This document shows positions 2,449 through 38,551 of a stretch of DNA of 38,551 nt, piece by piece. The position numbers were made by a program, and so were the translations under genes. The notes beneath the pieces are model-generated. The model ran no database searches. It had not been told where the DNA came from and worked only from the letters and a program-made list of their open reading frames with translations. How positions within the stretch are numbered: the first letter of the stretch is position 1; each line of letters starts with the position of its first letter. Source of the DNA: a virus; the IMG/VR virus record IMGVR_UViG_3300020055_000055, positions 1 to 38,551 of that record; one strand, given 5' to 3'.

Positions 2449-3354
2449 AGGACGCAAGTGATCCCAAGCTTCACCTGACCTACATTCCTGCATATTCCAT
2501 TGAGTGTATGCAATATCGTTACACCATTGCTGGATATCAACTTCATAATTAATATTTTCAATTTTACTTAATTTTTTATGTGCAATAGGCCAAACCATAC
2601 TTCCGTTGTTAAGAGCAAAAACAGGTATACCTTCACACACTGCTTCTATAGCACTTAAACTATTATATGTTACAACACAGTATGCGTTGGCTAAATCCAA
2701 GTCCAATCCCACGCCGCCTTGATTGCCACCTTCGGTATAGTTTTCACTTACAAAAACATTCTCGCCTTTTATACTGTGTGCGCCTTTTAAACCTGCTGTA
2801 AGATTTCTCGGATGAGGTCTTATGATAATTTTTCTATCAGAATGTTTTCTAATTTTATTAACTGTTTCTTGCATCCATTGTGTAAAATGTTTATATCCAG
2901 CATCGTACAAATCAGTTAAGCTACTGTCACCTTCCTTTTGACCCATTATAATAATATCGTCTCCTGGGCTATGCCAATGCTTTATTTTTACACCTGTTTC
3001 TTTTTTAAATTTATTCCATCTATCTGGAGGACTTTTTTCATTGCCAAAAATACCTTCTGTCCATTTATAACTATACCATCCTAGTCTACAATAATTTTGA
3101 TAATATTTTCTAAAGTTTGCACTTTCATTTACTAAAAATGGTTTGCCGCTATCTAATACATATTCGTATGCACCAGATCTATCTTTGGTTGCATACTTTG
3201 GTTTTAATAAATTTGTTTGTAAATATGCGTCTGCATTATTAACAATGTCAGTATTCAAGTTATCAAACTGGTATGTATCTCCACAGGCTACAATTCCTTG
3301 AGCAATAGATTTTACTGATTTTGTACAGCCTTTAATACCAGCAACTTTTATCAT
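2434..3354 (-). CDS. GT-B-like glycosyltransferase, tandem paralogue A
   Basis: This 306-aa protein is one of four adjacent paralogues (with 3351-4277, 4264-5289 and 5286-6068). Shared signatures in order are DRWNK, a W..(9)..I..(4)..DR segment running into IIRPHPR, CVVTYNSLSAIEAVCEGIPVF, and a C-terminal TQWNMQECRSGEAWDHL. The RxHP and YxSxxxxxAxxxGxPvF elements resemble the nucleotide-binding half of GT-B capsule or LPS glycosyltransferases, so I infer transferase activity. I chose ATG 3354, which overlaps the previous stop as ATGA, over the track-like start 8 codons upstream. It is the last gene of the 10-gene minus-strand operon and overlaps the convergent FkbM-like gene by 15 nt. Confidence 0.7.
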   Translation of the reverse strand: MIKVAGIKGCTKSVKSIAQGIVACGDTYQFDNLNTDIVNNADAYLQTNLLKPKYATKDRSGAYEYVLDSGKPFLVNESANFRKYYQNYCRLGWYSYKWTEGIFGNEKSPPDRWNKFKKETGVKIKHWHSPGDDIIIMGQKEGDSSLTDLYDAGYKHFTQWMQETVNKIRKHSDRKIIIRPHPRNLTAGLKGAHSIKGENVFVSENYTEGGNQGGVGLDLDLANAYCVVTYNSLSAIEAVCEGIPVFALNNGSMVWPIAHKKLSKIENINYEVDIQQWCNDIAYTQWNMQECRSGEAWDHLRPLVFN

Positions 3355-4277
3355 ACATATTGCCTCATATGACGCCACGCCTCTCCGGATTTTAATTCTT
3401 CAAAATTCCAATGACTCATAGATATTTTTTCTATCCATTTTTGTCTATCCTTAAGGACAGGTCTGTCTATTCTTCTTAATGAAGTTTCGGCAATGTCAAA
3501 TGCTTGGCTTGTTTCGGGTACAGGATCTGTAACAAAAACAGGTATGCCTTCTATTGCCGCAGCAACAGCAGGACTACTATTGTATGTTATTACAGCATGA
3601 CAATTGATTAAATCTTGTAATATATGATCATTTGTACTTAAACGCACACCAAAATGTTTCCATTTAATTCTCAAATATTCTTTTGCTTTTTTATCTCCTG
3701 GATGTGCTCTTACTACTATAGGTCTATCTGTAAATTTACGTATGCGTCTAACAGTATTTTTCACCCATTCGACTACACCTAGTTCTCCCATACTCCAGCC
3801 ACCATTACGTTGGCAGCAAATTAAAATATGATGTCCGTTTTGTCTTTCTGGTTTTAATTGTATATTTAAATTCCTACTTATACTTTGCCATCTAGCAGGA
3901 TCAGGATTATCCCAAAAGTAATTACCAGTTGTAGGAAATACTCCATTCATACTGTATCTTAAATAGTGTTTTGAATTACCAGGATCTGCATAAAGAAATA
4001 AATTGCTATCTGCAATAATAGTTGATTTATTATTTTTTAATTGATTTTCGTATACACTTTTTCGCAAATGCAAATGCGGAGATTTTACAGTTTTAAAATT
4101 ATGTTCTGCAATAAATCCTTGCAACACTGCTACATCACTTAATTCCCATCTTCTTTCTTGCGATACTTTTCCAATATCGCCAACACGATTTACACCCTCT
4201 ACAAAGAAGTTTAATATATCAATTTTTTCTTGATTCTTAGCATTTGGGATGCCACGTAAATAACTAACTACTTTCAT
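3351..4277 (-). CDS. GT-B-like glycosyltransferase, tandem paralogue B
   Basis: This is a 308-aa protein of the same four-member family. It shows ARWQSI, a block of W....VRRIRKFTDRPIVVRAHPGDK, then CHAVITYNSSPAVAAAIEGIPVF and a C-terminal HWNFEELKSGEAWRHM. The RAHPG and the GIPVF helix are the best-preserved parts and match the expected donor-binding half of a GT-B enzyme. The gene starts 14 nt inside the end of paralogue C and ends in an ATGA overlap with paralogue A. N-terminal halves differ much more among the paralogues than C-terminal halves, as expected if acceptor specificity has diverged while donor use is kept. No signal peptide or membrane segment is visible. Confidence 0.7.
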   Translation of the reverse strand: MKVVSYLRGIPNAKNQEKIDILNFFVEGVNRVGDIGKVSQERRWELSDVAVLQGFIAEHNFKTVKSPHLHLRKSVYENQLKNNKSTIIADSNLFLYADPGNSKHYLRYSMNGVFPTTGNYFWDNPDPARWQSISRNLNIQLKPERQNGHHILICCQRNGGWSMGELGVVEWVKNTVRRIRKFTDRPIVVRAHPGDKKAKEYLRIKWKHFGVRLSTNDHILQDLINCHAVITYNSSPAVAAAIEGIPVFVTDPVPETSQAFDIAETSLRRIDRPVLKDRQKWIEKISMSHWNFEELKSGEAWRHMRQYV

Positions 4278-5289
4278 TTTCTTTTTTGTATTCGTCTATA
4301 GCAAAATGCACCGGTTGTTTTAAATGAGCCCACGCTTCTCCACTTGCCATTTCTTCTTTTGACCATTGACAATAAGCAAGTGTGTTTAACCAATCTTGTA
4401 CAACTCCTTCGTCTTCTATGTAAGGATTTTCAAATTGTTTTACATCTTGTGAACTAATACCCCAAGTAAAATTACCAGGATCACCTGCAATTACAGGTAC
4501 ACCATTTAGCACTGCATCTATACTCAATCCACTTGTATATGCAATAACACATCTAGCATCTAAAATTTGTTGATCCCAAGGTGTATATTTTCCACTTACA
4601 AAAGTTACATTTTTAATATTATTGAATGCCAAATATTGATATACCGGAAGATGCGCATCAACTCCCTTTGAACTTAGCCCAGGATGAGTTCTGATTTCAA
4701 TTGGTCTATCTGTTATAGGTGTAATTTGATTTAAAACCCAAACACACCATTCGTTTATATCCATACCTCTTAGACTTGCATCTCCTGGTAATTGCAAAGC
4801 AATAACAATTTTGTCGCCTTTTTCTTTTCTCCATCCTTTGTAGTTAAATCCTAATTTTTGGAACCTGTCACCGTCGTATTTCTTTTCTAATCCAAATATT
4901 GCTGCTTCGTTTAAGAATCCATTAACACCTACTCTGTGATATTCACTTTCTTGAAACATTACTCTACCTAATAGTTGTGTTTCAATACACAAAAAAGGTT
5001 TATCACTTTGTGCTACTTCACTACGTACAGTGTGATGAGGAGATTTTCTTTCAGGTTTCCAACTACCAAATATAACTCCTAAATCATATCTGCCTTTTCC
5101 TCTATCGTCATAATTGAATTCAACACCAGTACCTAGTCCCATTGCTTTATTCATTCTTTTGATAATTGCAACATCTTCGTCGCCTAAATCGTCAGCAATT
5201 AAATCTTGTTTTATTCCTTTGTACATATGACGTAAAACATCTCGTTCACGTTCTCTAAATGTACTTTGCATAAAAACTTCTACTTTCAT
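4264..5289 (-). CDS. GT-B-like glycosyltransferase, tandem paralogue C
   Basis: At 341 aa this is the longest of the four paralogues. It carries DRFQKL, W....LNQITPITDRPIEIRTHPG, then CVIAYTSGLSIDAVLNGVPVI and CQWSKEEMASGEAWAHL. Extra length lies in an N-terminal segment (MKVEVFMQSTFRERERDVL) and a charged C-terminal tail. The start overlaps the stop of paralogue D as ATGA and the end overlaps paralogue B by 14 nt. As for the others, transferase activity is inferred from the RxHP and GxPv motifs and from the glycan context. The sugar is unknown. Confidence 0.7.
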   Translation of the reverse strand: MKVEVFMQSTFRERERDVLRHMYKGIKQDLIADDLGDEDVAIIKRMNKAMGLGTGVEFNYDDRGKGRYDLGVIFGSWKPERKSPHHTVRSEVAQSDKPFLCIETQLLGRVMFQESEYHRVGVNGFLNEAAIFGLEKKYDGDRFQKLGFNYKGWRKEKGDKIVIALQLPGDASLRGMDINEWCVWVLNQITPITDRPIEIRTHPGLSSKGVDAHLPVYQYLAFNNIKNVTFVSGKYTPWDQQILDARCVIAYTSGLSIDAVLNGVPVIAGDPGNFTWGISSQDVKQFENPYIEDEGVVQDWLNTLAYCQWSKEEMASGEAWAHLKQPVHFAIDEYKKENESS

Positions 5290-6068
5290 AATTCTCTATC
5301 TTTCATTAATCTTTTGTAGGCAAGTCCGTTAGCAAATTCATCTGTGTGAAATTGACCATATGCTAAATGATGTGCCCAGGCATACAACTTATCTTTGTGT
5401 TGTATTGTAGGATCTTCAAGTTTGCTTAAATCTTTATCGCAAACAGGATCAGCTGCTGTAGGAGCAAGTGTAAATGCAGGAACTCCACTGATTACACTTT
5501 CTACTGCTGCTATACTTTGATATGTCACCATAGCGTGACATTTATCTAAATCTTGCCATATTGTGTTTTTTAATCTTTCGCTGCGTATTTCTTTTGCACG
5601 TATCTTTATAGGACGGTCTGTGTGTTTTTGTATTTCTTTGACTGTTTGTTTGGTCCAATCTTCTAAATCTATCCCATAAAACTTGCAAGGCTTTTCACTT
5701 GGCAGTACAAGTAAAATATGTTGGCCTCCAGGACGATGTGCTTTTAATTTAATATTTAATTTATTCCATCTGTCGTCTGGACGTTCTATTATTTTATTAT
5801 GTTGTAAATCATTGTAAACAATCCTATGCCAAAATTTTAGGCCATTTGGATTGCCTGGGGATTTGTAATTTCCAAAATATCCGCTGTCCATATAATAGAA
5901 AGGTTTTTTACTTTTCCATCTTTCTTTAATAAGTTGTTTCTTTGCTATACTTCTTATAAGAATTGCTTCATCGGGAATAGGTTCGTCATAATCTTGCATA
6001 GGCAATCTAGCACCTTTTGCAAATTTATTAATAAAAACATCTTGTTTATTTTTGCTTAAACAAATCAT
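5286..6068 (-). CDS. GT-B-like glycosyltransferase, paralogue D, motif-degenerate
   Basis: This is the shortest of the four paralogues (260 aa). It retains DRWNKL, W....EIQKHTDRPIKIRA, CHAMVTYQSIAAVESVISGVPAF and YGQFHTDEFANGLAYKRL. However, the HPG that follows RP.x.R in the other three is replaced by KEIRS, and the segment between these motifs is shorter. It may therefore be inactive, of altered specificity, or a partner subunit. It overlaps the methyltransferase gene before it and paralogue C after it, both as ATGA, so it is translated as part of the operon and has no sign of frameshift or stop. Confidence 0.68.
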   Translation of the reverse strand: MICLSKNKQDVFINKFAKGARLPMQDYDEPIPDEAILIRSIAKKQLIKERWKSKKPFYYMDSGYFGNYKSPGNPNGLKFWHRIVYNDLQHNKIIERPDDRWNKLNIKLKAHRPGGQHILLVLPSEKPCKFYGIDLEDWTKQTVKEIQKHTDRPIKIRAKEIRSERLKNTIWQDLDKCHAMVTYQSIAAVESVISGVPAFTLAPTAADPVCDKDLSKLEDPTIQHKDKLYAWAHHLAYGQFHTDEFANGLAYKRLMKDREL

Positions 6069-6598
6069 TTATAAAAAAACATTCCTGAACGTTTAAAAAA
6101 CTTTTTGCGCATATTTGATATACTATGTAAATGTTTAGTATATTCTTCGTCATATGTAAAGCCGTATTGATTAAAAGCATCTATCCAGTAGTCTAAATCT
6201 TTACAGTTTACATGATGATGTCCTTTTTTACCAGGAGGTGCAGCAGTACAACACACGTATTTTGCACATTGAAATACTTGCATATAATTTGGCATATATT
6301 CTTCATATACGTGTTCTAAAAATTCAACGCTCCAAGCTAAATCAAATTTACTTAATATATTTGGTTTACCTAAAGTAAAATCGTGCAGCAAAGTATTATT
6401 TGTATTTTGTATTACTGTATCGTCGCCATCAACACCATACCAGTACACTTTTTTTGCTTCAGCCAATTCACGCATTCCGCCTGGTCCGCAGCCAATATCT
6501 ATCATACGTTTAATATTAAATTTATCTACAATGTGATCAAATACAGGTTGATCAACATTGGTTTTATTACCGTGTCCGCCTAAATGTGATTTTGCCAT
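6065..6598 (-). CDS. SAM-dependent methyltransferase, class I
   Basis: This 177-aa protein has the class I motif I, MIDIGCGPGGM, near residues 32-42, then YGVDGDD as the acidic post-motif that would bind the SAM ribose, and FDLAWSVEFLEHV as motif IV. This layout is typical of small sugar or lipid methyltransferases of the Methyltransf_11/23 kind. The substrate is unknown. It begins in a TAATG junction with the preceding methyltransferase-like gene and ends as ATGA with the first of the four GT-B-like paralogues, so it belongs to the 10-gene operon. The basic C-terminus (RKKFFKRSG) is unremarkable. Confidence 0.78.
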   Translation of the reverse strand: MAKSHLGGHGNKTNVDQPVFDHIVDKFNIKRMIDIGCGPGGMRELAEAKKVYWYGVDGDDTVIQNTNNTLLHDFTLGKPNILSKFDLAWSVEFLEHVYEEYMPNYMQVFQCAKYVCCTAAPPGKKGHHHVNCKDLDYWIDAFNQYGFTYDEEYTKHLHSISNMRKKFFKRSGMFFYK

Positions 6599-7092
6599 TA
6601 TGTTCTCTTTTCAAATTTGTAATGCAAATGCTTGCTGTGAGGTTTTGCTAAACTTTCTATGTTTACGAAATCAAATTCTTCTATTAGTTCTCTTAAAAAT
6701 TCATGATCGTAACCGCTTTTGTGTGTATCCCAAGTATCTTCAAACTCTCCTCTTTGCCAGCCCCAAAAGCCTGCCCTGCTGTGTTTACGATCTCTATCAG
6801 TTGCTCTACGTTGCCATTGCTCAATATGAAACGTCATATTAGGTAACATCATTTCGCAAACGCCTCCTGGCTTTAATATTGTGTGCCATTTTTGCATTAC
6901 AACTCTGCCTTGTGCAAATGTCAAGTGTTCAAAAAAGTGTCTTGAAAAAATTGTATCTACTGTGTTTGGTTTTACGTGTTTATCTATGTCCCAAGCAGCA
7001 CACACAAAATCTACACCAGGTACATTTCTTATATCGCAAGTTTTATATCCTTCTCTCGTAGGAGTCTCACCTGCTCCAAATTCTATGTTCAT
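6598..7092 (-). CDS. SAM-dependent methyltransferase-like protein
   Basis: I place the start at ATG 7092, giving 164 aa, because it forms an ATGA overlap with the stop of the GT29-like gene. A longer frame reaching 7197 would bury 100 nt in that gene. The protein opens with NIEFGAGETP, a motif I variant, followed by YKTCDIRNVPGVDFVCAAWDID, VDTIFSRHFFEHL and LKPGGVCEMMLPN. These are the elements of predicted SAM methyltransferases found in polysaccharide clusters, where LKPGG marks the strand after motif IV. It sits between the GT29-like gene and a second methyltransferase. Confidence 0.78.
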   Translation of the reverse strand: MNIEFGAGETPTREGYKTCDIRNVPGVDFVCAAWDIDKHVKPNTVDTIFSRHFFEHLTFAQGRVVMQKWHTILKPGGVCEMMLPNMTFHIEQWQRRATDRDRKHSRAGFWGWQRGEFEDTWDTHKSGYDHEFLRELIEEFDFVNIESLAKPHSKHLHYKFEKRT

Positions 7093-7601
7093 TGTACTAT
7101 CCTTACATTCATCGCACGAACAAATTGTTCTTCTAATTGCCAATCGTGTGGCTGATAATTGGTTTCTTCGTAATACCACGTACCTGTACGTTTCCAATCG
7201 AACCCATATATAGTTATCTGTTTTGGTTTACAATGCTGTATATAATGTAATGCCATTAATCCACTGCTAGGTTTTCTGTGTTGTAAATCTTTACGTAAAC
7301 GATTTAATATCTTCATACTTAAATAATAATCAATTCTATTGTCGATTATTTTTCTACCTTTGTGACTCATATAAAAATTCTTAATATTATATTTTTCAAA
7401 TAAATCATCTACTGTTTTACTTTGTCCGATTGCCCAAACATCGGTACGAGTTCCTTGTGCTGTCGGATTCTGTATTATTACTCCTCTGTTTATTCTGCAA
7501 ACAACTTCGTGATTATCAATACTGTTACCGTGTGTGCTTTGCATTAGCGCACCCGAACTTCCTACAAGTGCAACATCTTTATTTTCAAACCAATCCTGCA
7601 A
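7089..7601 (-). CDS. Sialyltransferase-like (GT29-type) glycosyltransferase
   Basis: This 170-aa protein carries a recognisable sialylmotif L at residues 10-40 (ALVGSSGAL, then DNHEVVCRINRG). A sialylmotif-S-like stretch lies at 110-136 (KPSSGLMALHYIQHC, IYGFDW), and there is a late HDWQLEE resembling the VS motif His and Glu. Family GT29 enzymes transfer sialic acid from CMP-sialic acid and are best known from eukaryotes, with scattered bacterial and phage relatives. The protein is shorter than animal enzymes and has no membrane anchor, so it would act in the cytoplasm. Its true donor may be another CMP-linked sugar. It overlaps both operon neighbours. Confidence 0.75.
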   Translation of the reverse strand: MQDWFENKDVALVGSSGALMQSTHGNSIDNHEVVCRINRGVIIQNPTAQGTRTDVWAIGQSKTVDDLFEKYNIKNFYMSHKGRKIIDNRIDYYLSMKILNRLRKDLQHRKPSSGLMALHYIQHCKPKQITIYGFDWKRTGTWYYEETNYQPHDWQLEEQFVRAMNVRIVQ

Positions 7602-8406
7602 AATTAAACTCCATTGGTTTTTGTTTTTTCATAAATGTAAATAATTTTTTATATTCTTCTGTGTAATTTTTTACGTTGTTAATAGCATCTATAATTTCTT
7701 CATTACTACAACCAAAAGGTAGCACAGGTATATCTACCATTGCTGTAGCAAACAGTCCTTGATTTTTATGCGTATTGCCTTCGATAACAATAAAAGGTGT
7801 TTCTGCAACACAAGCTGCATACATTTCGTGATGTCTACCTGTAACTAATAAGTTACTATTTTTTATCTGGGAAACAAGATCACTCCACGTTTGAGTGAAA
7901 ATGTCAACATAGCCGTCTTCACCTACTCCTTTTATTTTTGGTTTTTTTGGTTTAGTTTTTGGTATATTCATTTTGTTGCCTGCAACAATATTATACCTAG
8001 GTTTGTCTGTATATTCTATTGGTGTAAAATAACTTAAATCTAAATGTCTATCAAACTTTATGCCAATCTGATTATATATTTCATATTGAGATTTAACTTC
8101 ACGAACACTAACATAATTTATATTAAGAAGGCGTTTAGTAAGTTCTAAACTATTTTCTTGCCAAACTGTGTTAACTAACATACTGTATTTTGCATCGCAT
8201 AATAAATCTATAATTTTGTAAGCACGATCTGCATTGTGATGCATAGTGCCTTCGCCATTTGCTATAACAACATCATATAAGGAAACATCAACGTCTAAAT
8301 CATCTGCAATGTATAGGTTGGGTATTTTTGATCTATAATAATCTATTACGGCTTTACACCCGCTATGGTAACGCTCTGTATTGTTTATTAACAATACATT
8401 AGGCAT
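7585..8406 (-). CDS. Polysaccharide pyruvyltransferase-like protein
   Basis: The 273-aa protein resembles the polysaccharide pyruvyltransferase family (PF04230), which adds ketal pyruvate to sugars of capsules and S-layer polymers. Supporting segments are VVIANGEGTMHHN at about 46-58, NYVSVREVKSQ at about 97-107, and LLVTGRHHEMYAACVAETPFI at about 187-207, which matches the family's conserved GRhH and G.P element. The gene overlaps the GT8-like gene by 8 nt upstream and the GT29-like gene by 17 nt downstream. Pyruvyl groups would add negative charge to a glycan, which fits with the sulfotransferase and dehydrogenase encoded nearby. Confidence 0.75.
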   Translation of the reverse strand: MPNVLLINNTERYHSGCKAVIDYYRSKIPNLYIADDLDVDVSLYDVVIANGEGTMHHNADRAYKIIDLLCDAKYSMLVNTVWQENSLELTKRLLNINYVSVREVKSQYEIYNQIGIKFDRHLDLSYFTPIEYTDKPRYNIVAGNKMNIPKTKPKKPKIKGVGEDGYVDIFTQTWSDLVSQIKNSNLLVTGRHHEMYAACVAETPFIVIEGNTHKNQGLFATAMVDIPVLPFGCSNEEIIDAINNVKNYTEEYKKLFTFMKKQKPMEFNFAGLV

Positions 8407-9073
8407 TCATCATATCCTGTAGTTCTGCTTTCCATAGATCCGCAAATTCACAGTTTCTATAGTTTTCAAACCAAGGACCGCCTTCTGTATAATGTATCAG
8501 CTTAGGCTTTTCAATATCGTCATATACGCCAACAAGATAGTTCCAAGTGTGATGTAACTCTCCTATTTCAAAATCGTTCAGCCAACTAAATCTGTGTAAG
8601 TATGCACCATTGATTTCAGGATCGTTGACTAGACTTTGTGTAACTTTCCGATTAGCAGGATGACCGCAATTAAACAACATTACACTACTCCAGTTTTTTC
8701 GTGGATAGATAGTTTGTTTTTGTCCGTCCATCTTTGTACCTTCTTTAGGTGTGTAGTCGTGCTGTACACACATGATAGCATACTTGTCGTCTGCTTGGTC
8801 AAACAGTTCTTTAATATCTGTAGTAAGGATCATATCGCAGTCCATAAACAATGCCCAGCCTTTGAAATCTGTAAGTTCTGGTATTAGAAAACGTGTAAAT
8901 GTAAATTCTGTGCTTGCAAGTTTATCTACGTCACGTTTGTACCATCCTGCATCACGTAATTCCTGTTGTTTAAGTGGACGCACATCTGCTGCTGGTTGTT
9001 TGCTCAATATACTGTGCTTACACACTTGATATGCAATATCCTCTCTTGTATCATATCCTACAAATACTTTCAT
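8399..9073 (-). CDS. GT8-like glycosyltransferase
   Basis: This 224-aa protein opens with MKVFVGYDTREDIAYQVCKH, the start of a GT-A family common in marine phages and bacteria. The metal-binding DxD is DCD at 78-80 in ALFMDCDMIL, and a C-terminal HYTEGGPWFENY near 194 supplies the metal-binding His and resembles HF.G..KPW of GT8 enzymes. The start codon lies in a TAATG junction with the cytidylyltransferase-cupin gene, so the two are co-translated. This hints that a CDP-activated or related sugar may be used nearby, though the donor is not determinable. Confidence 0.8.
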   Translation of the reverse strand: MKVFVGYDTREDIAYQVCKHSILSKQPAADVRPLKQQELRDAGWYKRDVDKLASTEFTFTRFLIPELTDFKGWALFMDCDMILTTDIKELFDQADDKYAIMCVQHDYTPKEGTKMDGQKQTIYPRKNWSSVMLFNCGHPANRKVTQSLVNDPEINGAYLHRFSWLNDFEIGELHHTWNYLVGVYDDIEKPKLIHYTEGGPWFENYRNCEFADLWKAELQDMMNA

Positions 9074-9843
9074 TAGTCTCTTCTTTCTATATCATCTTCT
9101 GTTAAATCTTTGCCCATCCACACTTCTATTACTTTGGCTGCTTTGTTATCAATGTTAATTGCTTTGTGCCAATAGCCAACCGGAATATCAATACTGTCTC
9201 CAGGCACAAGTAATTGTTGGAATTTATTGCCTTTTCTGTCTTCAAGTAACATTGCTATAACACCATCAACAACGTGCCAATGTTCGCTGCGTTTAAAATG
9301 TCGTTGATCACTCAGTGCTTTGCCTTCATAAAATGTAAGTTCTTTTACTTGCCATTCTCCGTTGCTATCTAATACTTTGTATTCACCCCAGGCACGTTTT
9401 GTTACAGGTTTATCCCAGTTTTGCAATATCCAACTACTCGAATTTTTCTTGTCTTCGCCGCCAACTCCAAATGCAAATTCAACATCTGGATGATCTCCAT
9501 ATACTGATAGTTCTGGACTATTTGTGTTTGTCCTATCACCGCCGTTTGCAAATACAACTTTCCAACTAGTACTTTTTGTTTGTAACACTTGACCGATTGC
9601 TGCACACGCACTATCATCGGTGTCGTTAAAACCAATAACTTCGTCTACACATTCAAGCTCTTTAATTATTGCTGTACGTTCATTAAAGGGCATAAATGGT
9701 CTACCTTTTTTACGTGTTAACCACTCATCGCTGTTTACAGCAACAGTTAGATGATCACCTAACTCACGTGCTGCTTTAAAATACTCAATATGTCCGCTGT
9801 GTAATGGATCAAAACCACCCGATACTAGAATTACTTTATTCAT
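9073..9843 (-). CDS. Cytidylyltransferase-cupin fusion protein
   Basis: This is a two-domain protein of 256 aa. Residues 1-135 are a HxGH nucleotidyltransferase (GGFDPLHSGH with H15 and H18, then ERTAIIKELECVDEVI and a late SSSW), like glycerol-3-phosphate cytidylyltransferase or the HldE cytidylyl domain. Residues 145-256 are a cupin (HFKRSEHWHVVDG at 182-194, IPVGYWHKAIN at 220-230) like the type II mannose-6-phosphate isomerase domain. The fusion could make and condition an activated sugar or alditol. It is the first gene of the 10-gene operon, separated from the sulfotransferase stop by 32 nt, with a late-like box 4 nt before its ATG and no clear Shine-Dalgarno sequence. Confidence 0.8.
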   Translation of the reverse strand: MNKVILVSGGFDPLHSGHIEYFKAARELGDHLTVAVNSDEWLTRKKGRPFMPFNERTAIIKELECVDEVIGFNDTDDSACAAIGQVLQTKSTSWKVVFANGGDRTNTNSPELSVYGDHPDVEFAFGVGGEDKKNSSSWILQNWDKPVTKRAWGEYKVLDSNGEWQVKELTFYEGKALSDQRHFKRSEHWHVVDGVIAMLLEDRKGNKFQQLLVPGDSIDIPVGYWHKAINIDNKAAKVIEVWMGKDLTEDDIERRD

Positions 9844-9870
9844 CTAGTATTTACTTTAGTAATCTACTAG
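9844..9870 (-). promoter_or_regulatory. Late-like box within a small inverted repeat at a start codon
   Basis: On the minus strand AGTAAATA (9848-9855) lies 4 nt before the ATG of the cytidylyltransferase gene. The same 27 nt form an inverted repeat, CTAGTA at 9844-9849 with TACTAG at 9865-9870, and inside it TTAC and GTAA can also pair. This is the only intergenic stretch in the 12-kb minus-strand sugar region, so it is the natural place for a promoter of the downstream 10 genes. The function of the hairpin is not known. Confidence 0.45.
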
Positions 9871-9875
9871 TTTAA

Positions 9876-10493
9876 TTATAAATGGTTTTTAAAATAATCA
9901 TAATCGTCTGCGTAGTGTTCTTGTATTATTTTTATTATTTCTGGATCTTTGTTGTATTCTACAAGATTGGTTTGACGATTTTTTCTATGTGTTGCTTGTA
10001 GTTTTACTTCAGCAATTCTACCAATATATTTTCTTACTTTCGTTGTTATATCAGCAGTTTTATACACTTTGTCATAACTATTAATATCTTTTTCAAGAAA
10101 GTATTCAACTTGTTTTCTACTGTGTTGTGCTACGTCAGCAAACTGACTTCTATAATTTTGTAGGTTATAAACAAAGTCTTCCCAACTTTTTATTGTATCA
10201 TTACTGTCATTCATATTACGCAAAACTACTCTATCATTGTAAATACTGTATAAACGTTCTATAGGATCTCTAATTATAACAATTTTGTTATCTATTTTTT
10301 GTATAGGAGAATCTTTATAAATTTTAGGTGTTAATTTTCCTGATGTGCGTAATTGTTTGTGATTTTGTCTTGGACTCAAATCGGTACTATAAGAATTAAA
10401 ACACTGAACTATGTAAACAACAATACTACTGCTGCCTGCTTTTTGCGCAACATCAACTTGAAGATTTTTTCCGTTATCAAAATACGCTATCAT
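9876..10493 (-). CDS. Sulfotransferase-family protein (PAPS-dependent)
   Basis: This 205-aa protein shows both PAPS-binding elements of the Sulfotransfer_2 and related families. A 5' phosphosulfate loop is at residues 17-23 (QKAGSSSI), and a 3' phosphate-binding segment is at 71-84 (KIVIIRDPIERLYSIY, with the conserved Arg and Ser). Such enzymes sulfate carbohydrates. A sulfated glycan would be consistent with the acidic-sugar and pyruvyl functions encoded nearby. It is the last gene of the uvsX-led chain and starts in an ATGA overlap with the dehydrogenase gene. PAPS would have to come from the host, as no ATP sulfurylase or APS kinase is in this window. Confidence 0.75.
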   Translation of the reverse strand: MIAYFDNGKNLQVDVAQKAGSSSIVVYIVQCFNSYSTDLSPRQNHKQLRTSGKLTPKIYKDSPIQKIDNKIVIIRDPIERLYSIYNDRVVLRNMNDSNDTIKSWEDFVYNLQNYRSQFADVAQHSRKQVEYFLEKDINSYDKVYKTADITTKVRKYIGRIAEVKLQATHRKNRQTNLVEYNKDPEIIKIIQEHYADDYDYFKNHL

Positions 10494-11284
10494 TCTCTCA
10501 TACCATTGAACACAGTTTTTTTAAACTTACGATTATCTGCGTCAATACTACTTATTAAATCAAAGTCTAATTCTAGTTTGTCAAGTAAACTAACAATAGC
10601 TTGTGTATCTTTTGGCAAACACATACCTCCATAACCACGCAGATTTGGATTTACATCTAAATACATATCTTTTGCTTTGCCTGTTTTAATGTATGCATTT
10701 TTTATAGTTGTATAATCGCAGTCAAGTTTTTCACAAATTTCATACATAACATTTGCAAATGTTACACGTAATGCAGCATATACATTATTATAATATTTTA
10801 ATACTTCTGCTTCATTAGGTGTAAGGTGTTCAGTATGTGCTGGTAAATTTCCGTGTGCTTGTACAAGTTTTCTATACACTTGTATATCGTGTGTGCCTAT
10901 TGCTAATAATTTATGATTGTTTATAAAGTCATCTGTTGCACAACGTTCACGTAAAAATTCAGGAACAAAACATATTGTTAATTTTTTATGCGTGTCAATC
11001 ATACGTTGTGTAAATCCAGGTACAACTGTACTGCGTATTGCAATTATTCCTTTGTACGAGTTATCATTTAATTCTTGTATAACACTTTCGATTATACTGG
11101 TATCACAACTTCCATCATCTGCTTGTGGTGTTGGTACACAAAGAAAACAAATTTCTGTTGACAATACATCTTGTATTTTTGTATCTAATTTAGTATCGTG
11201 TACAATTACACTGTTTTCTAAATATTCAAAACCTTCTTTGTTTGCTGTGCCTACTGCACCTAGCCCAACAATACCTATATTCAT
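10490..11284 (-). CDS. UDP-glucose/GDP-mannose dehydrogenase-like protein, short form
   Basis: This 264-aa protein matches the first two domains of nucleotide-sugar 6-dehydrogenases, which oxidise UDP-glucose or GDP-mannose to the uronic acid. It has the NAD motif GIVGLGAVG (4-12), FVPEFLRERCA near 106-116 like the family's NPEFLREG, the dimerisation helix AEVLKYYNNVYAALRVTFANV, and GYGGMCLPKDT with catalytic Cys222. Usual family length is about 390-450 residues; the C-terminal sugar-nucleotide-binding domain is absent. The stop is embedded in an ATGA overlap with the next gene, so the shortness looks evolved and not like a frameshift. Confidence 0.82.
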   Translation of the reverse strand: MNIGIVGLGAVGTANKEGFEYLENSVIVHDTKLDTKIQDVLSTEICFLCVPTPQADDGSCDTSIIESVIQELNDNSYKGIIAIRSTVVPGFTQRMIDTHKKLTICFVPEFLRERCATDDFINNHKLLAIGTHDIQVYRKLVQAHGNLPAHTEHLTPNEAEVLKYYNNVYAALRVTFANVMYEICEKLDCDYTTIKNAYIKTGKAKDMYLDVNPNLRGYGGMCLPKDTQAIVSLLDKLELDFDLISSIDADNRKFKKTVFNGMRE

Positions 11285-12141
11285 AATAAACTTTCTACTG
11301 TTTTCCTTAGTCCTATTTCTAAAGGTGTGTAGTCTGTAAATCCTGTTAACATTTGCACCAATGTTGTATCAGGACATCTACGTTTTGCACTACCTTTTGG
11401 ACCTGATAATATTTCTAGTTTATCTGGATTAATATCCATAAAACCCATTATCATTTTTGCAACTGTACTTATACTTGTTTCTATATCGTTGCCTACGTGA
11501 ACGATTTTATTGTTTGCATTGTTTACTAATCTATCAGTCATTTCGATAGCGTCATCGATGTAACAAAAACTTCTTGTATCGTCACCTTTGATATAGTATT
11601 CACCTTGTTTACATCGTTCTACAAACTCGCTGATAAAATGATCAACTTGTCCTGGTCCATATATGTTAAAGTAACGTATGATTAGCCACGGTAATCCGCA
11701 GTTTGCAACTAAGTTTTCACCGACAGCTTTCGGAACGCTATAACTCCATCTTGGGTTCGTAATGTCGTTAAACATAACTGGTACTTGTTCATCAGTTGGA
11801 ATATGGTAATAACCCGCATCAATTGCTCCTGAAAATATTTCACAAGTGCTTGCAAACACAAACTTTGTATTTGTATTCCTGTATCTCGATACTAAGTTAA
11901 AAGTAGGCAATGTATTGTTAAAACATACATCGGTTGGTTGTTCATAAAACAACTTTGTACCATTAGTAGCAGCAAGGTGTACAACTACATTTGCATCAGG
12001 CAAATTGTTTGTAGTTTCAACAAGGCATAAATCTTGTCCTGCTCTTTTGTCTACAACAACAGGATTTAAATTTTTATCCTGCAAATATTTGTAATAATGA
12101 CCTCCAATAAAACCCTTGTGTCCTGTTAGTACAAAAGTCAT
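11281..12141 (-). CDS. NAD-dependent sugar epimerase/dehydratase (extended SDR)
   Basis: This 286-aa extended short-chain dehydrogenase begins MTFVLTGHKGFIGGHY, where GxxGxxG (7-13) binds NAD. The catalytic set is S98/T99, Y134 and K138 in YSVPK, and the family-typical RYFNIYGPGQ (156-165) and RSFCYIDDAI (190-199) follow. Enzymes of this kind epimerise, decarboxylate or dehydrate nucleotide sugars. Paired with the dehydrogenase downstream it could convert a UDP-uronic acid, for instance to a pentose or galacturonate derivative. It is joined to both neighbours by ATGA overlaps. Confidence 0.85.
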   Translation of the reverse strand: MTFVLTGHKGFIGGHYYKYLQDKNLNPVVVDKRAGQDLCLVETTNNLPDANVVVHLAATNGTKLFYEQPTDVCFNNTLPTFNLVSRYRNTNTKFVFASTCEIFSGAIDAGYYHIPTDEQVPVMFNDITNPRWSYSVPKAVGENLVANCGLPWLIIRYFNIYGPGQVDHFISEFVERCKQGEYYIKGDDTRSFCYIDDAIEMTDRLVNNANNKIVHVGNDIETSISTVAKMIMGFMDINPDKLEILSGPKGSAKRRCPDTTLVQMLTGFTDYTPLEIGLRKTVESLL

Positions 12142-12857
12142 ATAAAAACCTTTCTTCTTACTAATGTGCGTTTTTGTTTATCACTGCCTTTATAGTGTTG
12201 CATATACTTGTTAAATGCAATATTGAAATGATTCTTTACAGCATTTTTTGGACTCAAGTTGAATCTAGCAAGCTGAGGAAAATCTTTCAAACAAGCATCA
12301 AAAACGTGACAATCTAATTGTCCGTCTAAGTTATATATCTCATCGGTATCGTAATACCATTGCCATTTGTTAAAAAAATGTCTTGATTTTCTATTTAGAA
12401 AAAATTGTAAAAAACCTGTTTCTGTATATTTGTCTTCTCTGCCTAAATATGATACAAAATAACCTTTTGGTAATTTACTTCCTAAATATTTTTTATCAAC
12501 ATATGTTTTAAATTCAGTATCGGCATCTAGCCAAATTAGTCTTTTTGTGTCAACAGTTCTACTTGCGTGAATTATTGCATAACTTTTATGTGAAAATTTT
12601 ACAGCATCTTTTATGAAGCCTTTTGTACCTTGAGGCACAGGCCTATGTTTATTTCTTTTTTTAAATTCTTGTAATTCTGGAATACTATCTTTTAGTACAT
12701 AATTTTCAAAATGAGTAGGTAATCCGGTGTATTCTACATCTGTATAAATTCTAACTTTTATATCTTTTTTAATATATGCGGCAGCACTTCTTAAAAAATA
12801 CTTTGCATAGTCTTTATAATTATTTTCACTGAATGTTGATACTAAGGTCACACTCAT
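12138..12857 (-). CDS. Glycosyltransferase, GT-A type with DxD motif
   Basis: This 239-aa glycosyltransferase is a third member of the family seen at 316-1140 and 1137-1889. It shares the MSVTLVSTFS start, LIWLDADTE (D111, D113) and a C-terminal YMQHYKGSD like the HxxKG of its relatives. Its start codon overlaps the stop of uvsY as ATGA, so a sugar gene has been attached to the recombination operon without any gap. The intervening region HRPVPQGTKGFIKDAVKFSHKSYA resembles the KWDAVRFANKVYA of the 316 gene. Donor and acceptor are unknown. Confidence 0.82.
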   Translation of the reverse strand: MSVTLVSTFSENNYKDYAKYFLRSAAAYIKKDIKVRIYTDVEYTGLPTHFENYVLKDSIPELQEFKKRNKHRPVPQGTKGFIKDAVKFSHKSYAIIHASRTVDTKRLIWLDADTEFKTYVDKKYLGSKLPKGYFVSYLGREDKYTETGFLQFFLNRKSRHFFNKWQWYYDTDEIYNLDGQLDCHVFDACLKDFPQLARFNLSPKNAVKNHFNIAFNKYMQHYKGSDKQKRTLVRRKVFI

Positions 12858-32525: not shown

Positions 32526-32960
32526 ATGAATCAAATAATTTGTAGTGGTGCTTTGTTTTATAGTTTGCAAACGCACAGATTTTTATTATTACATAGAGCA
32601 AAAAGTAAATCTAAAAATGTTTGGGGTCTTGTAGGTGGTACAAACGAAGGTTATGAAACACCCTGGGAAGGTCTAAAAAGAGAAATACAAGAAGAAATTG
32701 GCAGTGTACCAGAAATTAAAAAAACAATCCCATTAGAAACATTTATTAGCAGTGACGAACATTTTCATTTTCACACTTATTTGTGTGTCGTTGAAAAAGA
32801 ATTTTTACCAAAACTAAACGACGAACACGATGGATACTCATGGGTAAAATTTGGTTCATGGCCTAAACCCTTGCACAACGGACTATCAAACACTTTACGT
32901 AGTAAATATAATCAAAATAAACTAGAAACTATTATCCAGCTTGTTGATATAATTTCTTAA
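32526..32960 (+). CDS. Nudix hydrolase
   Basis: This 144-aa Nudix-fold pyrophosphatase has a complete Nudix box at residues 38-60: G38, E44, R52-E53, E56-E57 and G59, fitting GX5EX7REUXEEXGU except that the last hydrophobic is Ser60. Nudix enzymes hydrolyse X-linked nucleoside diphosphates. Here the substrate could be an oxidised dNTP, a dinucleotide, an mRNA cap-like 5' end or a nucleotide sugar. It follows gp15 by 13 nt. Its last 29 nt overlap, in the opposite direction, the end of the 880-aa gene, so transcription from both strands would meet here. Confidence 0.9.
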   Translation: MNQIICSGALFYSLQTHRFLLLHRAKSKSKNVWGLVGGTNEGYETPWEGLKREIQEEIGSVPEIKKTIPLETFISSDEHFHFHTYLCVVEKEFLPKLNDEHDGYSWVKFGSWPKPLHNGLSNTLRSKYNQNKLETIIQLVDIIS

Positions 32961-35574
32961 ACTCATCTTTCAACCAATTAAAATCATTGAGTTTTGCTAG
33001 TTCTACTGGATTATCTTTGTGCTCTTCGCCAAAGTTTTTACCTGCTATAGCACCAGCAATTGCTGCTTTACCAAATGGTTTATCATCGCCTTTACTGCAC
33101 CAGGCATCTAATCTAAATTCTGTCTCGTCGTCTTTTTGTCTTGCAATAGTACGACTTGCAAGTTTTGCACATTCTCTAAATCCACTGCGCCAAGCACTAA
33201 ACGAGTCTGTGTTAAATGCAGTAGTATTGCTCATTTCATCAATGCCTTTGAACTTATCACTAATGCTAGTTGTCATATCTGTAGTAGATTCGTCTAAGTT
33301 CCTTGTTAAAGCAGTAGGCAATAATTTTACACCGCCGTAACCATATACAAGTCCATTAATAGGATTATAACTTCTCCATACGTGTACAGTTTCTTTACCA
33401 TCTATATCATATGCAGGAACATAAAAGTCAAAATCAAATCCGTCAATTATTTCAGCATCTCCATCTACTACCCAAAACATTTCCGTTTCTGCTAGTTCTG
33501 CTGCACGTTTGTGAGCAGCATGAATGCCTTTAATATCCATTACACGTTTTGCTCTAGGAAATTTTTCGCTCAGTGAATTAAAGTTGTCATCAGCATTTGG
33601 TTCTCCATTACTAATAAAAACAATATCATAAGGTTTAGGACGACTGCCTACCTCTGGATATTCTTTTTTAGTAACAAAAAATCTATAATCAATTTCACGT
33701 TGACTAATGTTTAATTTTTTACTAGTTAATGAAATACCATCATAAAATTCTCCGTTTTTCCAAACGTGATTAATTTTGCGTTCATATTGATTATGATGAC
33801 TTATATAAAAATCCCAATTAAAATTATCTACAGGTAAAAAACTATCATTTACCATCCAGAACATATCAAAATTACAATCTTTTTTTGCTCGTAAATAATC
33901 TTGATAATCATTCACTGTGTAAATTGGATATTGCTTAGGATTACTTGCAACAATTTCGTGTTCTTTTTTCTTAATTAAAAATCTATGTTCTATTTCTTTT
34001 TCACTTACTAAAACATTTTTACTGAATAAAACAATACCATCGTATGTGTCATTGTTTAAAAATACGTGATTGATATTTCTATCATAAGTGTTGTGATGAT
34101 CAAAATATAGATCAAAAGCAAAATCTTCACACACTTCTACATCATCTGGTATACCCCAAAACATTTCCGACTCACAATTATATAATGCTTCGGTGTAGTC
34201 TTCATATGAATTGATTACAAATTGTTGGAATTTTTTTGGTGTACTAGCAACAATATTGTGTTCTTTTTTGTTTACATAAAATCTATGATCAAATTCTTTT
34301 TCACTTATTTCAGACCTTGCACACATTAATGCAATGCCGTCATACGAATCTTCATTTAGGAAAACGTGATTTGTTTTCATATCAAAAGACTCTTGATCGT
34401 GAAAATATTTGTCCCATTCAAATTCTTCATTTACATCAACATCGCTTGGTATTAACCAGAACATATCACTGCCGCAACTTGCTATTGCACTTTTGTATTG
34501 TTCATATGTATCAATATTAAAACGTTCAAAATCTTTTGGTACACTTGCAACTTCTTCATGATCAATCTTGTGTTCTAATTCTCTAAAAATAATTTCTTTT
34601 TCTGTCACAGGTGAGTTTTTACTAAACAAAAAGACACCATTGTATTTGTTTCCATTTAACCAAGCGTGATTGCTTTTTCTATCTGAGCTATGATGGCTAA
34701 TATAATAATCAAATTTAAAATCTTCATTGATAATAATTTGATTGCTATATCCCCAAAATAAATGCGTTGTTGATTTTTGTAATGCAGATTGATAATCGTA
34801 ATAATCATTAATTTCAAAACAATCATATGGTCTAGGATTACTTGCCATAATCCTTACTTCTTTTTTATCAATTAAGAATCTATGTTTTAATTCCCTTTCA
34901 GAAATATCATAATTTTTTGGTAGCAACATAACACCATCTAATTGATCAATGTCCCCGTTGCCAAAAACGTGTGGTGTATCATAACTCCATTCATCGGGTT
35001 TATAACTAAATTTAAATGTATCTCTTACAACAGTATCATCGTAAACAATCCAAAACATATCAGTAAAACTTTGTTCTCTAGCTTGTTCCACCGTGTCTAC
35101 AGATTGTACTTTAAATCCTCTTTCGATTAGATTATTGTGTACAGTTTTATCTTCTCCAATGTAAAAGATATCAAATTTTTCTTGCCCTTTATAAGGGCTG
35201 TAATGTCCAGCAATATATTTTTCTTCTATTTCAATAAAATTATTCCAATGTGCATCTCTGCTTACTAAACGAACCAAATCATAGCTTTTTACTTCTCTAC
35301 TTTTTTCAAATACATAAGGAAATTTAAACGTTGCTAATTGATTAGGCATATAATACCAAGGAAAACTTGGATATATTTCTATACCTTTTTTTATTAGCCA
35401 AACATATTTTGTGGTAATTTCATTTTCTTTTTCTTTTAAGATAGAATAGTCAGTAGGATCATCAACATAAAAAACATTCCACTTAGGCAAAAAATGATTT
35501 TTTAAACTGTCTTGTCCAGGAAACAAACCTGGGGTTGATTTTAATTTATCGAATTTTGAAAATGCTGTTTTCAT
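32932..35574 (-). CDS. Giant modular protein with tandem glycosyltransferase-like repeats
   Basis: This 880-aa protein has six copies of a module marked by an FW pair at F174, F273, F372, F472, F572 and F700, with period 99-100 except the last. Each module reads roughly Y..Y..A......MFW-x4-7-D..v..-(F/W)-x-(F/W)-D.Y(I/F)..H..Y-D/E-R..NHV(W/F)-L/K-N-YDGI.L.SK, then EKE...RF...KKE..I.AS.P. The last (about 650-755) keeps DGD at 704-706 in WVVDGDAEI and ends with HVWRSYNP and GYGGVKLLP, as in marine phage glycosyltransferase-like proteins. Earlier modules lack the full DxD. It overlaps the GT2-like gene as ATGA. Confidence 0.78.
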   Translation of the reverse strand: MKTAFSKFDKLKSTPGLFPGQDSLKNHFLPKWNVFYVDDPTDYSILKEKENEITTKYVWLIKKGIEIYPSFPWYYMPNQLATFKFPYVFEKSREVKSYDLVRLVSRDAHWNNFIEIEEKYIAGHYSPYKGQEKFDIFYIGEDKTVHNNLIERGFKVQSVDTVEQAREQSFTDMFWIVYDDTVVRDTFKFSYKPDEWSYDTPHVFGNGDIDQLDGVMLLPKNYDISERELKHRFLIDKKEVRIMASNPRPYDCFEINDYYDYQSALQKSTTHLFWGYSNQIIINEDFKFDYYISHHSSDRKSNHAWLNGNKYNGVFLFSKNSPVTEKEIIFRELEHKIDHEEVASVPKDFERFNIDTYEQYKSAIASCGSDMFWLIPSDVDVNEEFEWDKYFHDQESFDMKTNHVFLNEDSYDGIALMCARSEISEKEFDHRFYVNKKEHNIVASTPKKFQQFVINSYEDYTEALYNCESEMFWGIPDDVEVCEDFAFDLYFDHHNTYDRNINHVFLNNDTYDGIVLFSKNVLVSEKEIEHRFLIKKKEHEIVASNPKQYPIYTVNDYQDYLRAKKDCNFDMFWMVNDSFLPVDNFNWDFYISHHNQYERKINHVWKNGEFYDGISLTSKKLNISQREIDYRFFVTKKEYPEVGSRPKPYDIVFISNGEPNADDNFNSLSEKFPRAKRVMDIKGIHAAHKRAAELAETEMFWVVDGDAEIIDGFDFDFYVPAYDIDGKETVHVWRSYNPINGLVYGYGGVKLLPTALTRNLDESTTDMTTSISDKFKGIDEMSNTTAFNTDSFSAWRSGFRECAKLASRTIARQKDDETEFRLDAWCSKGDDKPFGKAAIAGAIAGKNFGEEHKDNPVELAKLNDFNWLKDEFKKLYQQAG
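33625..35172 (-). repeat. In-frame tandem repeats of about 297-300 nt in the 880-aa gene
   Basis: At least four regular units (residues about 250-650) plus one divergent unit before them. Adjacent units differ at many positions in protein and DNA, so the duplications are old, unlike recent slippage repeats. Strongest shared blocks are MFW, the H..YDR.INHVFLN.D.YDGI segment and the IEHRF..KKEHEIVAS.PK.. linker. Confidence 0.8.
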
Positions 35575-36155
35575 AGTGTGTTTGCTTTCAATCCTAAATG
35601 AACTAATTTAATATCTGCATCTAACCAAACATCAATTCCGTGATGCATTGCTTGATTACAAAAGTATATATCCTCGCCGCAGTAATTATCTTCTGATTTA
35701 TTATATTCGTGTGCAAACCAAGGCTTTGGTAACTCTTTAAATACTTCTGCTTTTACTAACATACAACCCATTCCTACAGCCCAAATTTTGTGTAATCCGC
35801 TGTTTTGGTTCAATCTTGTGTGTATGTTTTCTGGATCTGTAAATGCTACTGATCTATAAGGAGCATATCGTGTACTGTATTGTGCAGCAACAATATTTTT
35901 ATTGTGTGTCATTAAAACATCAGCAGTATTTGCTGGAAACTGCATATCGCTGTCTAGCCATAGTAGATGTGTTGCATCTTTTTCTAATGCAAGATTTGCT
36001 AAGTCGATACGTTGTTGCGCAATCACGCTTCCACAAACAATGTGTAGATCAAATGGTATTTCTAACTTAGTAAGCCTACTAGTTAATTTACTTAAACTTT
36101 GAGCAAAAAAAGTGTGTACTTGATCTCTTGCAGGAACACAGATACCAATTTTCAT
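35571..36155 (-). CDS. Glycosyltransferase, GT2-like
   Basis: This is a 194-aa GT-A-fold protein with an N-terminal strand MKIGICVPARDQV, then VIAQQRIDLANLALEKDATHLLWLDSDMQFP, where D68-S-D70 is the metal-binding DxD. A long acceptor-side stretch GMGCMLVKAEVFKEL, HEYNKSEDNYCGEDIYFCNQA follows, where GEDIYF resembles the catalytic ED of GT2 enzymes. It would transfer a sugar to an unknown acceptor. The start codon forms a TAATG junction with the 125-aa gene and its stop overlaps the 880-aa gene as ATGA, so all three are co-expressed from the strong promoter at 36555-36583. Confidence 0.83.
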   Translation of the reverse strand: MKIGICVPARDQVHTFFAQSLSKLTSRLTKLEIPFDLHIVCGSVIAQQRIDLANLALEKDATHLLWLDSDMQFPANTADVLMTHNKNIVAAQYSTRYAPYRSVAFTDPENIHTRLNQNSGLHKIWAVGMGCMLVKAEVFKELPKPWFAHEYNKSEDNYCGEDIYFCNQAMHHGIDVWLDADIKLVHLGLKANTL

Positions 36156-36532
36156 TACAATACTGTATTAGGAATCTCAGCTTCGTTTAATTCTTTTTCT
36201 GCTGCAACTGTTAAGTTATTCCAAGTACGTGCAGAACCTGTAGCAACTTTTACACATTCTTGAAAATCTGCAGGATCAAGTGCAGCCATTGCTAACATAT
36301 TTTCTGGTTGTACTTTACCAATTGTAAGAAGGTCAGCACCGGCAGCGTGTCCAATTTTTTGAATCCAATGCAGTCTATCATCGTCTGCTGGTACAGACAT
36401 TTCAGCAACTGCTGCTTCAGCTTCAGAATGTAAGTCTGCATCTAAATCCAATGTTGCAAGTTTTGCAAGTTTTCTTGCTTTGGTGTATTCTTGTGCCAAA
36501 TCAACATTTAGCACTTCATAAAGTGTTTTCAT
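36155..36532 (-). CDS. Hypothetical protein, first gene of the 125-aa/GT/880-aa operon
   Basis: This 125-aa, Ala-rich, acidic and largely helical protein begins MKTLYEVLNVDLAQEYTKAR. Segments such as DADLHSEAEAAVAEM and DRLHWIQKIGHAAGADLL look amphipathic. I do not recognise a family, and it has no membrane or signal sequence. It is the first gene behind a perfect-consensus sigma70 promoter and has GGAG about 8 nt before its ATG. It is coupled to the GT2-like and 880-aa genes, so it could be a regulator or partner of those enzymes. That is context only. Confidence 0.72.
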   Translation of the reverse strand: MKTLYEVLNVDLAQEYTKARKLAKLATLDLDADLHSEAEAAVAEMSVPADDDRLHWIQKIGHAAGADLLTIGKVQPENMLAMAALDPADFQECVKVATGSARTWNNLTVAAEKELNEAEIPNTVL

Positions 36533-36554: not shown

Positions 36555-36583
36555 ATTATAATTGATTATAACACCTTTGTCAA
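36555..36583 (-). promoter_or_regulatory. Perfect-consensus sigma70 promoter
   Basis: On the minus strand TTGACA (36578-36583), a spacer of exactly 17 nt, then TATAAT (36555-36560). A second TATAAT lies inside the spacer (36565-36570) at non-optimal distance. It starts 5 nt after the stop of the candidate fibre gene and drives the 125-aa, GT2-like and 880-aa genes, suggesting strong early expression by host polymerase. Confidence 0.85.
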
Positions 36584-36587
36584 GTAA

Positions 36588-38551
36588 TTAGTCATCAAAT
36601 GTTAAATGATATAATATTCCTGTCCAAGATAATACCCACATATTTTCTCCAACACCATCGAGTTGGAAACCTGCTACGCTCATTTCTCTAGGTAATCTTA
36701 AACTTCTCTGTAAAGTCCATGTACCTCCTACAAGATCCATACTGTTACAGGTAAATTGACCAAATGTATTAGCGCCAGGACAATATAATATAAATTCAGC
36801 ATAATTCGGAGTTAATGAATTTGTTAAATGTCTAACGTGAATACCAGTAATTGCGTTAGCACTGTATGATATTCCAAATACAACTCCTAAAGGATCAAAT
36901 CCTGCATTAACTAATTTAGTCCTTAGTTCTACTGATGAATATACATTATACATACTAGGAGACACGTTGTTCAATGTAGCACTTGCTCGCCATTGGTGTA
37001 AATATCCATCTGTGCCAGTCATCCAATAATAAGAATTATTTACATCATCTAAGTTATGAGAAGTTTCTAAAGAGTGTGCTGCACCTAAAGCATAAATGTT
37101 TCCAGTGTTACCACTTTTTGCAGCACTTGTCCTACCATTTAAAGTATTATCGGCAATACCTCCTGCAGCAGAGATATTCATATGGATTTCAGGTCCAGAT
37201 CCATTGAGATATGTAATATATGTTTGTTGTCTGCTTGTTGATTTATCCATAAAATCAGCAAATACAGGACCAGGAAAAGTGAAACTACTTGCCAAATATG
37301 AACTTATATCTCTTGTATGTGTACTACTTACTGTGTTCAGATTCCATCCTTGAGTCATATTCACTTGTGCGGCAATATTATTACTGGTACCTGCATATGC
37401 GCCAACTTTTTGGCCGTATTTATAATCAGAATAAAGTAAACCGCCGTTTCTGTCTAAATCTGGCAAGTAATTGTAATAATTTGGAGGTTGATAAACTGCG
37501 CCTGACGTGTTACCAAGTAGTGGATACCAAAAATCACCTCCGCCTGTATAATTCAATGCACTTAGATCTTCACTTGAAAAATCAAATGGTGTGGTTAATT
37601 CGTACAATACAGCAGCGTGGCCATACTGAACGTGGCCCATAATAACTTTTGTTCCGGTTGAATCTAGGTGGCGTGACCATCCAGATATACCACTACTATA
37701 ATATGAATCTCTTGTGGTTGGAGCATTGTCAACAACATCCCAGCTTGTTCCTAACTCATATCTCAATATTCCTGTGCCCGATTGTGTATATTCTCCTACA
37801 AACAAATAGTCTTCTGTAACTTGGAAAAAGTCAGGATAATCATAACCAGCATTATCAGGTCTATCAAATCTGCCATCATATGTAACTGTTCCAGAGACAG
37901 GATCGCTGCCAGTATAGCTAAATTGATAGATATATTGAAAACCGTTGACAACATCGTCTCTGCCTAACAACCAAAATTTATTTTGACTTGGTTCCCATTG
38001 TGCATAGTCTATTCTCTGGAATGATTTAAAGTCAGAATATGCTCTTGTAGTAAGGCCGGTATAACCGTTTAAATCGAAATTAGTTGATGTAACTTTTGAT
38101 ATACCATTAATAGGACTCCTAAACATTATACAAGTAGTGCCTGCACTATTCCAATTTAATCCTTTAAAACCAGAAAACTGGGTAGTGTTATGTTTAAAAC
38201 TTGTTTTTTCGCTTGCTCCACCTAGTGTCCACGGTGAGAGTAAATCTATTTGTCCGCCACCTGAAGTATTAAGATCAGATGTAAAATAAAGTTTGTTTCC
38301 ATCCGGCGATGGAAAAATATGTGTAGCACCCCCTTGGTTGGTTGTAAAACTTCTTTTTCCACCTAGTTCTTGAAAATCAGGAGGACCAGATTGTGCTCTG
38401 AGATTAGCAAGCTGATAGTTTTTAGCATTACTGAATGAACTTGTTGCACTTTGATAACCACCGAATGTACTACTCATTGTAATAGTAGTACCTTGAGAAA
38501 TACCAATATATGTACCTAATATACCTAAAACATATGTGCTTACTTCTCCTT
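36588..38551 (-). CDS. Candidate beta-propeller fibre or host-recognition protein, 5' end outside
   Basis: An ATG at 38477 would give 629 aa, but the frame stays open for 24 further codons to the window edge. These read GEVSTYVLGILGTYIG, ISQGTTITMSS, so the true start is probably further right. The visible protein is rich in Tyr, Gly, Ser and Asn. Repeating strands such as IFPSPDGNKLYFTSD, WEPSQNKFWLLG, LDSTGTKVIMGHV and GENMWVLSWTGILYHL look like blades of a beta-propeller. A TITMSSTFGG-type motif resembles the start of domains in marine phage fibres. No catalytic motif is visible. A receptor-binding or adhesin role is inferred from composition and position, not demonstrated. Confidence 0.62.
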   Translation of the reverse strand, partial: GEVSTYVLGILGTYIGISQGTTITMSSTFGGYQSATSSFSNAKNYQLANLRAQSGPPDFQELGGKRSFTTNQGGATHIFPSPDGNKLYFTSDLNTSGGGQIDLLSPWTLGGASEKTSFKHNTTQFSGFKGLNWNSAGTTCIMFRSPINGISKVTSTNFDLNGYTGLTTRAYSDFKSFQRIDYAQWEPSQNKFWLLGRDDVVNGFQYIYQFSYTGSDPVSGTVTYDGRFDRPDNAGYDYPDFFQVTEDYLFVGEYTQSGTGILRYELGTSWDVVDNAPTTRDSYYSSGISGWSRHLDSTGTKVIMGHVQYGHAAVLYELTTPFDFSSEDLSALNYTGGGDFWYPLLGNTSGAVYQPPNYYNYLPDLDRNGGLLYSDYKYGQKVGAYAGTSNNIAAQVNMTQGWNLNTVSSTHTRDISSYLASSFTFPGPVFADFMDKSTSRQQTYITYLNGSGPEIHMNISAAGGIADNTLNGRTSAAKSGNTGNIYALGAAHSLETSHNLDDVNNSYYWMTGTDGYLHQWRASATLNNVSPSMYNVYSSVELRTKLVNAGFDPLGVVFGISYSANAITGIHVRHLTNSLTPNYAEFILYCPGANTFGQFTCNSMDLVGGTWTLQRSLRLPREMSVAGFQLDGVGENMWVLSWTGILYHLTFDD

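Follow-up and report, generated by a model that had tools for sequence, protein, structure and literature searches.

The window (the whole 38,551-nucleotide stretch analysed here, a 38.5-kb virus record) is the contig of an uncultured, aquatic T4-like phage and encodes T4-like head, tail and packaging genes; among the matches listed, no terminase of a cultured phage exceeds 53% identity to that of the window. Its minus strand carries an open reading frame for an 880-residue protein, referred to below as the repeat glycosyltransferase (repeat-GT), whose modules and neighbours are collected in Table 1.

Table 1. Features of the repeat-GT locus (positions in the window; residues are those of the 880-aa protein).
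Feature	Position	Strand	Basis
Repeat glycosyltransferase gene, 880 aa	32932..35574	-	ORF and relatives
Module 1, residues 34-133, degenerate, N-terminal	35176..35475	-	module HMM on window and relatives
Module 2, residues 134-244, predicted to retain beta1-alpha1 half; VYDD replaces DxD	34843..35175	-	module HMM, model
Module 3, residues 245-344, predicted truncated GT-A core, non-catalytic	34543..34842	-	HMM, model, shuffles
Module 4, residues 345-443, predicted truncated GT-A core, non-catalytic	34246..34542	-	HMM, model, shuffles
Module 5, residues 444-543, predicted truncated GT-A core, non-catalytic	33946..34245	-	HMM, model, shuffles
Module 6, residues 544-648, predicted truncated GT-A core, non-catalytic	33631..33945	-	HMM, model, shuffles
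Module 7, residues 649-790, predicted GT-A domain with intact DGD	33205..33630	-	alignment, model, structure search
DGD, residues 704-706	33457..33465	-	both D invariant in 69-row alignment and in 73/73 last modules
C-terminal helical region, residues 791-880; RExxKL and FNTD conserved nearby	32935..33204	-	alignment, model
GT-like neighbour gene P0002, 194 aa, phrog_1574; stop overlaps repeat-GT start (ATGA)	35571..36155	-	
125-aa protein, phrog_1409, function unassigned; TAATG overlap with next gene	36155..36532	-	
Promoter-like site, sigma-70-type, TTGACA-17-TATAAT (12/12)	36555..36583	-	consensus match only
Small-ORF-like N-terminus fused to PD40 beta-propeller-like protein; runs off window	36588..38549	-	

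Wherever gene order was mapped around a repeat-GT of at least six modules, the genes run in the order fibre, (small ORF), 125-aa protein, GT-like P0002 and repeat-GT. A Nudix gene and tail genes converge on this conserved cassette, of which the 125-aa protein is a member. The small ORF of relatives (L204-L218) is 45-60 aa long (MALPATGSTITMSQIRNYF...SFGGYYFP) and precedes the 125-aa gene; the window has an apparent homologue of it, fused to the PD40 beta-propeller-like protein of about 600 aa.

Homology and predicted fold of the modules

The initial annotation had described six modules of about 100 residues, marked by FW pairs at residues 174, 273, 372, 472, 572 and 700 and reading YDD, YSNQ, PSD, PDD, NDS and DGD at the metal site. 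All six positions are exact and each motif was found at its claimed place. The six modules are real, but a seventh, degenerate module at the N-terminus (approximately residues 34-133) had been overlooked, and the period, which holds across modules 2-7, ends in a longer unit made up of the GT-A domain and its helical region (residues 649-880). Smith-Waterman scores between pairs of modules 2-7 lie 8-43 s.d. above those of shuffled sequences, so the periodicity is not a product of chance. Module 1 is weak within the window protein alone (z≤4.1) but is recognised across relatives by the module HMM, and in many of them its position reads VWVVDxx. Comparison of an alignment of internal modules only with one of catalytic modules only (hhalign probability 97.2%, E=3e-11) upholds the proposal that the two kinds are homologous. 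The array has the homologous units, single predicted fold and variable copy number of a tandem repeat.

When modelled alone with AF2, the C-terminal domain reached a pLDDT of 90.6, and all 26 of the listed Foldseek matches in the PDB at E≤0.001 were either glycosyltransferases of the GT-A type or HddC, a GT-A-like nucleotidyltransferase (best E 4e-5, probability 1.00). Among the matches listed at this threshold were WrtF, PcManGT, pp-GalNAc-Ts, RmlT, K4CP, CgT and ArnC, which we take to be glycosyltransferases of this type, together with HddC. The query-normalised TM-scores of these matches are low (0.33-0.44), and assignment of the model to the GT-A fold thus rests on the probability and consistency of the matches. 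The full-length model (pLDDT 86, pTM 0.59) agrees with the expectation that the modules share one fold, but its pTM leaves their arrangement relative to one another uncertain. Modules 3-6 were mostly modelled at pLDDT 90-95 with the same order of secondary structure, E-H-E-E-(H)-E-E-H-E, which is that of the catalytic domain without its first strand and helix. The internal modules are thereby predicted to be truncated GT-A cores that lack the beta1-alpha1 half, although module 2 retains it.

The best structural matches, both for the C-terminal domain and for the full model, are GT2/GT27-like GT-A enzymes (K4CP, pp-GalNAc-Ts, RmlT and WrtF). These share with the phage protein a DxD after a central strand, but identity is only 7-15%, at the low query TM-scores given above for matches at E≤0.001. 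The chondroitin polymerase K4CP has two full domains, whereas the cores of the phage protein are truncated, dead and arranged in a row. The weak matches of the full model included human lysyl hydroxylase LH3 and Mimivirus R699, multi-domain glycosyltransferases with a non-catalytic GT-like domain. In enzymes of this kind a GT-A-derived domain can persist without glycosyltransferase activity alongside an active one; they have one or two full domains, however, as opposed to up to a dozen tandem truncated cores in variable number. Foldseek returned only two BFVD models that match along the array, the uncharacterised proteins A0A6J5LK21 (804 aa, E 6e-36) and A0A6J5L5L5 (1076 aa, E 9e-32) of uncultured Caudovirales. 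Although these are just 14-16% identical to the repeat-GT and have no assigned function, the whole-length match of the models suggests that they apparently have the same architecture.

Profile searches of Pfam, PHROG and NCBIfam gave no significant match and no family entry for the repeat-GT, in keeping with the earlier remark that no described protein of this design was known. Likewise, we found no significant sequence relative among PDB sequences or cultured phages; a Cr30 match (E=6) was judged unrelated. PF00535 (CAZy GT2) is matched below threshold by 21 of 69 members at E≤0.1, with a best E of 0.0026, but the curated cut-off was not reached and the window's own domain had no match. A search covering part of the journal literature returned no description of such a protein. 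The fold is a known one, and the architecture appears to be undescribed.

Copy number and selection among relatives

A first scan of IMG/VR gave 46 loci, a profile scan found 244 related stretches, of which 80 were kept, and shorter forms were added by a scan with the C-terminus of a ten-module relative. Copy number varies among homologues, a point that the initial annotation had raised for checking: the 73 distinct complete proteins have between 1 and 13 modules, most often seven (n=36), then two (n=10), three (n=8) and five (n=5), with rarer forms of ten, four or one (n=3 each), eleven (n=2) and six, twelve or thirteen modules (n=1 each). On a tree of the C-terminal domain, 11 changes of copy-number class are required, compared with a possible minimum of 4, and one ten-module and one five-module form are placed within or beside the seven-module group; copy number has therefore changed repeatedly. 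Contigs from metagenome-assembled genomes (MAGs), reached by a scan of a genome collection, yielded only one-module forms or tandem catalytic-type forms. One of these (L199, 3051-4634) has two catalytic-type domains fused in tandem with DGD in both. Repeat-GTs of about 1100 aa (L109, L110, L112 and L115) are extended at the C-terminus by some 225 aa; a PHROG search with one such extension gave no significant match. A nine-module form (L041 and L130, the same contig) looks like the product of an in-frame deletion in which the first part of a module was joined to the module that follows, and could be natural or an artefact of assembly.

The proposal that a module was amplified in tandem with loss of its metal site is supported by these proteins. 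A DxD is present in the last module of all 73 (DGD in 51, DAD in 22) compared with none of 276 internal modules, in which D never occupies the first position. The internal modules have near-invariant residues of their own at HMM columns H80 (274/276), G90 (276/276), L93 (276/276) and E104 (275/276), and a conserved polar loop, HHNxYDRxxNH. Every module is under purifying selection, median pairwise dN/dS being 0.12 for the catalytic module, 0.17-0.27 for modules 2-6 and 0.34 for module 1, values which are rough given that dS is near or above 1. Across the 36 distinct seven-module proteins, modules 3-6 share a mean identity of 60-71% with modules of the same rank, compared with 34-52% between modules 3-6 within the window protein. 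Each module of a seven-module protein is closer to the same rank elsewhere than to its neighbours, which implies that the amplification in these proteins is old; recent copies do occur in some longer forms (87% identity in L135). The absence of DxD might have been taken to mean that the internal modules are pseudodomains decaying after a recent duplication, but the dN/dS values and the rank orthology common to the seven-module proteins contradict such decay and leave it highly implausible. Judged from their conserved residues, the internal modules are not eroding.

A proposed arm, its acceptor and the fibre cassette

The most economical reading of these data, and in our estimate the most likely one (probability of about 0.55), is that the repeat-GT has a single active GT-A domain, and that its pseudo-GT-A repeats form an arm by which the acceptor is held or positioned. 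The last domain (residues 649-880) would bind a nucleotide-sugar via its DGD and transfer the sugar. The preceding modules would be copies of the central half of this domain from which the metal site was lost, with modules 3-6 having also lost the beta1-alpha1 nucleotide-binding half, and would persist as structural repeats. The arm so formed may present a long acceptor, either a polysaccharide or a fibre, to the single active site, and we infer that the array binds glycan. Because the start of the repeat-GT gene overlaps the stop of P0002, the two proteins are probably made together and would act in sequence on one glycan. That the array is instead a mere spacer or oligomerisation stalk, without a ligand and maintained for stability, strikes us as unlikely: its repeated changes in copy number are what one would expect of such an element, and a role in the core or at interfaces could account for all of the near-invariant residues, but purifying selection in every module and the conserved polar loop of the internal modules argue against it.

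For an arm that holds an acceptor, the gene neighbourhood adds the tail fibre as a rival target to a polysaccharide. Among loci with at least six modules, 39 of 43 have upstream a gene for a tail fibre that bears an S74 chaperone domain, whereas at five modules or fewer the count is 2 of 29; the complete fibre ORFs are 3181-3874 aa long. From this association, the substrate of the cassette could be the giant tail fibre of the phage itself (or the adjacent small or beta-propeller virion-like protein), with the repeat arm docking along the fibre. We consider this doubtful, however, as low-copy forms of the repeat-GT occupy other gene contexts, module number has no tight link to fibre length (nine- and ten-module forms share a 3793-aa fibre) and the cassette has a promoter-like site of its own.

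This site also bears on a different target, namely that the cassette remodels a host surface glycan (O-chain or capsule) bound by the arm and so alters the receptor of the fibre, blocking superinfection or the re-adsorption of progeny. A consensus match to TTGAC(A/T)-N17-TAnnnT stands behind the fibre gene in 13 of 13 distinct relatives examined, and the 12/12 match in the window precedes the 125-aa gene. Single promoter-like sites are often within chance expectation, and the argument lies in their constant position and spacer. Since this sigma-70-like promoter is separate from the late-like motif GATAAATA that precedes the fibre gene, early expression is suggested; a late-like motif, ATAAATAA, is however also present at the end of the fibre gene in most relatives, so that expression may be late as well. 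The first 13 kb of the window hold a dense carbohydrate cluster (316-12857) comprising glycosyltransferases, a GT8, an epimerase and a cytidylyltransferase with mannose-isomerase cupin, which favours a host glycan. So does a precedent from marine pelagimyophages, likewise aquatic myophages, in which glycosyltransferases of the host-recognition region lie near tail fibres, with the host O-chain as their proposed target (PMC7029224). The part of that article considered here gives GT8 as the most represented family and contains no tandem dead-module protein. We regard a host-glycan target as a tentative possibility.

A more ambitious formulation, to which we would give somewhat less than even odds, is that the variable array of up to a dozen metal-less truncated GT-A cores is a polysaccharide- or fibre-binding ruler which feeds one terminal active glycosyltransferase, and represents a new class of repeat protein that is widespread in uncultured aquatic phages. 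If one active domain is indeed served by such an arm, an enzyme domain would have given rise to a tandem structural repeat in which only the final copy is still active. The natural variants of 1-13 copies would then offer a ready-made series for asking how the length or specificity of the product depends on acceptor-binding arms, and the gene would point to a cassette for glycan modification that follows the tail fibre gene in uncultured phages. Finally, a second, distant single-domain relative of about 300 aa is present in the same phages (L154, 1697-2590; L193, 2394-3305; L185, 2536-3453) and reads SYDEPNAE...VDADN in L154; in L183 and L185, radical-SAM genes lie near genes of the family.
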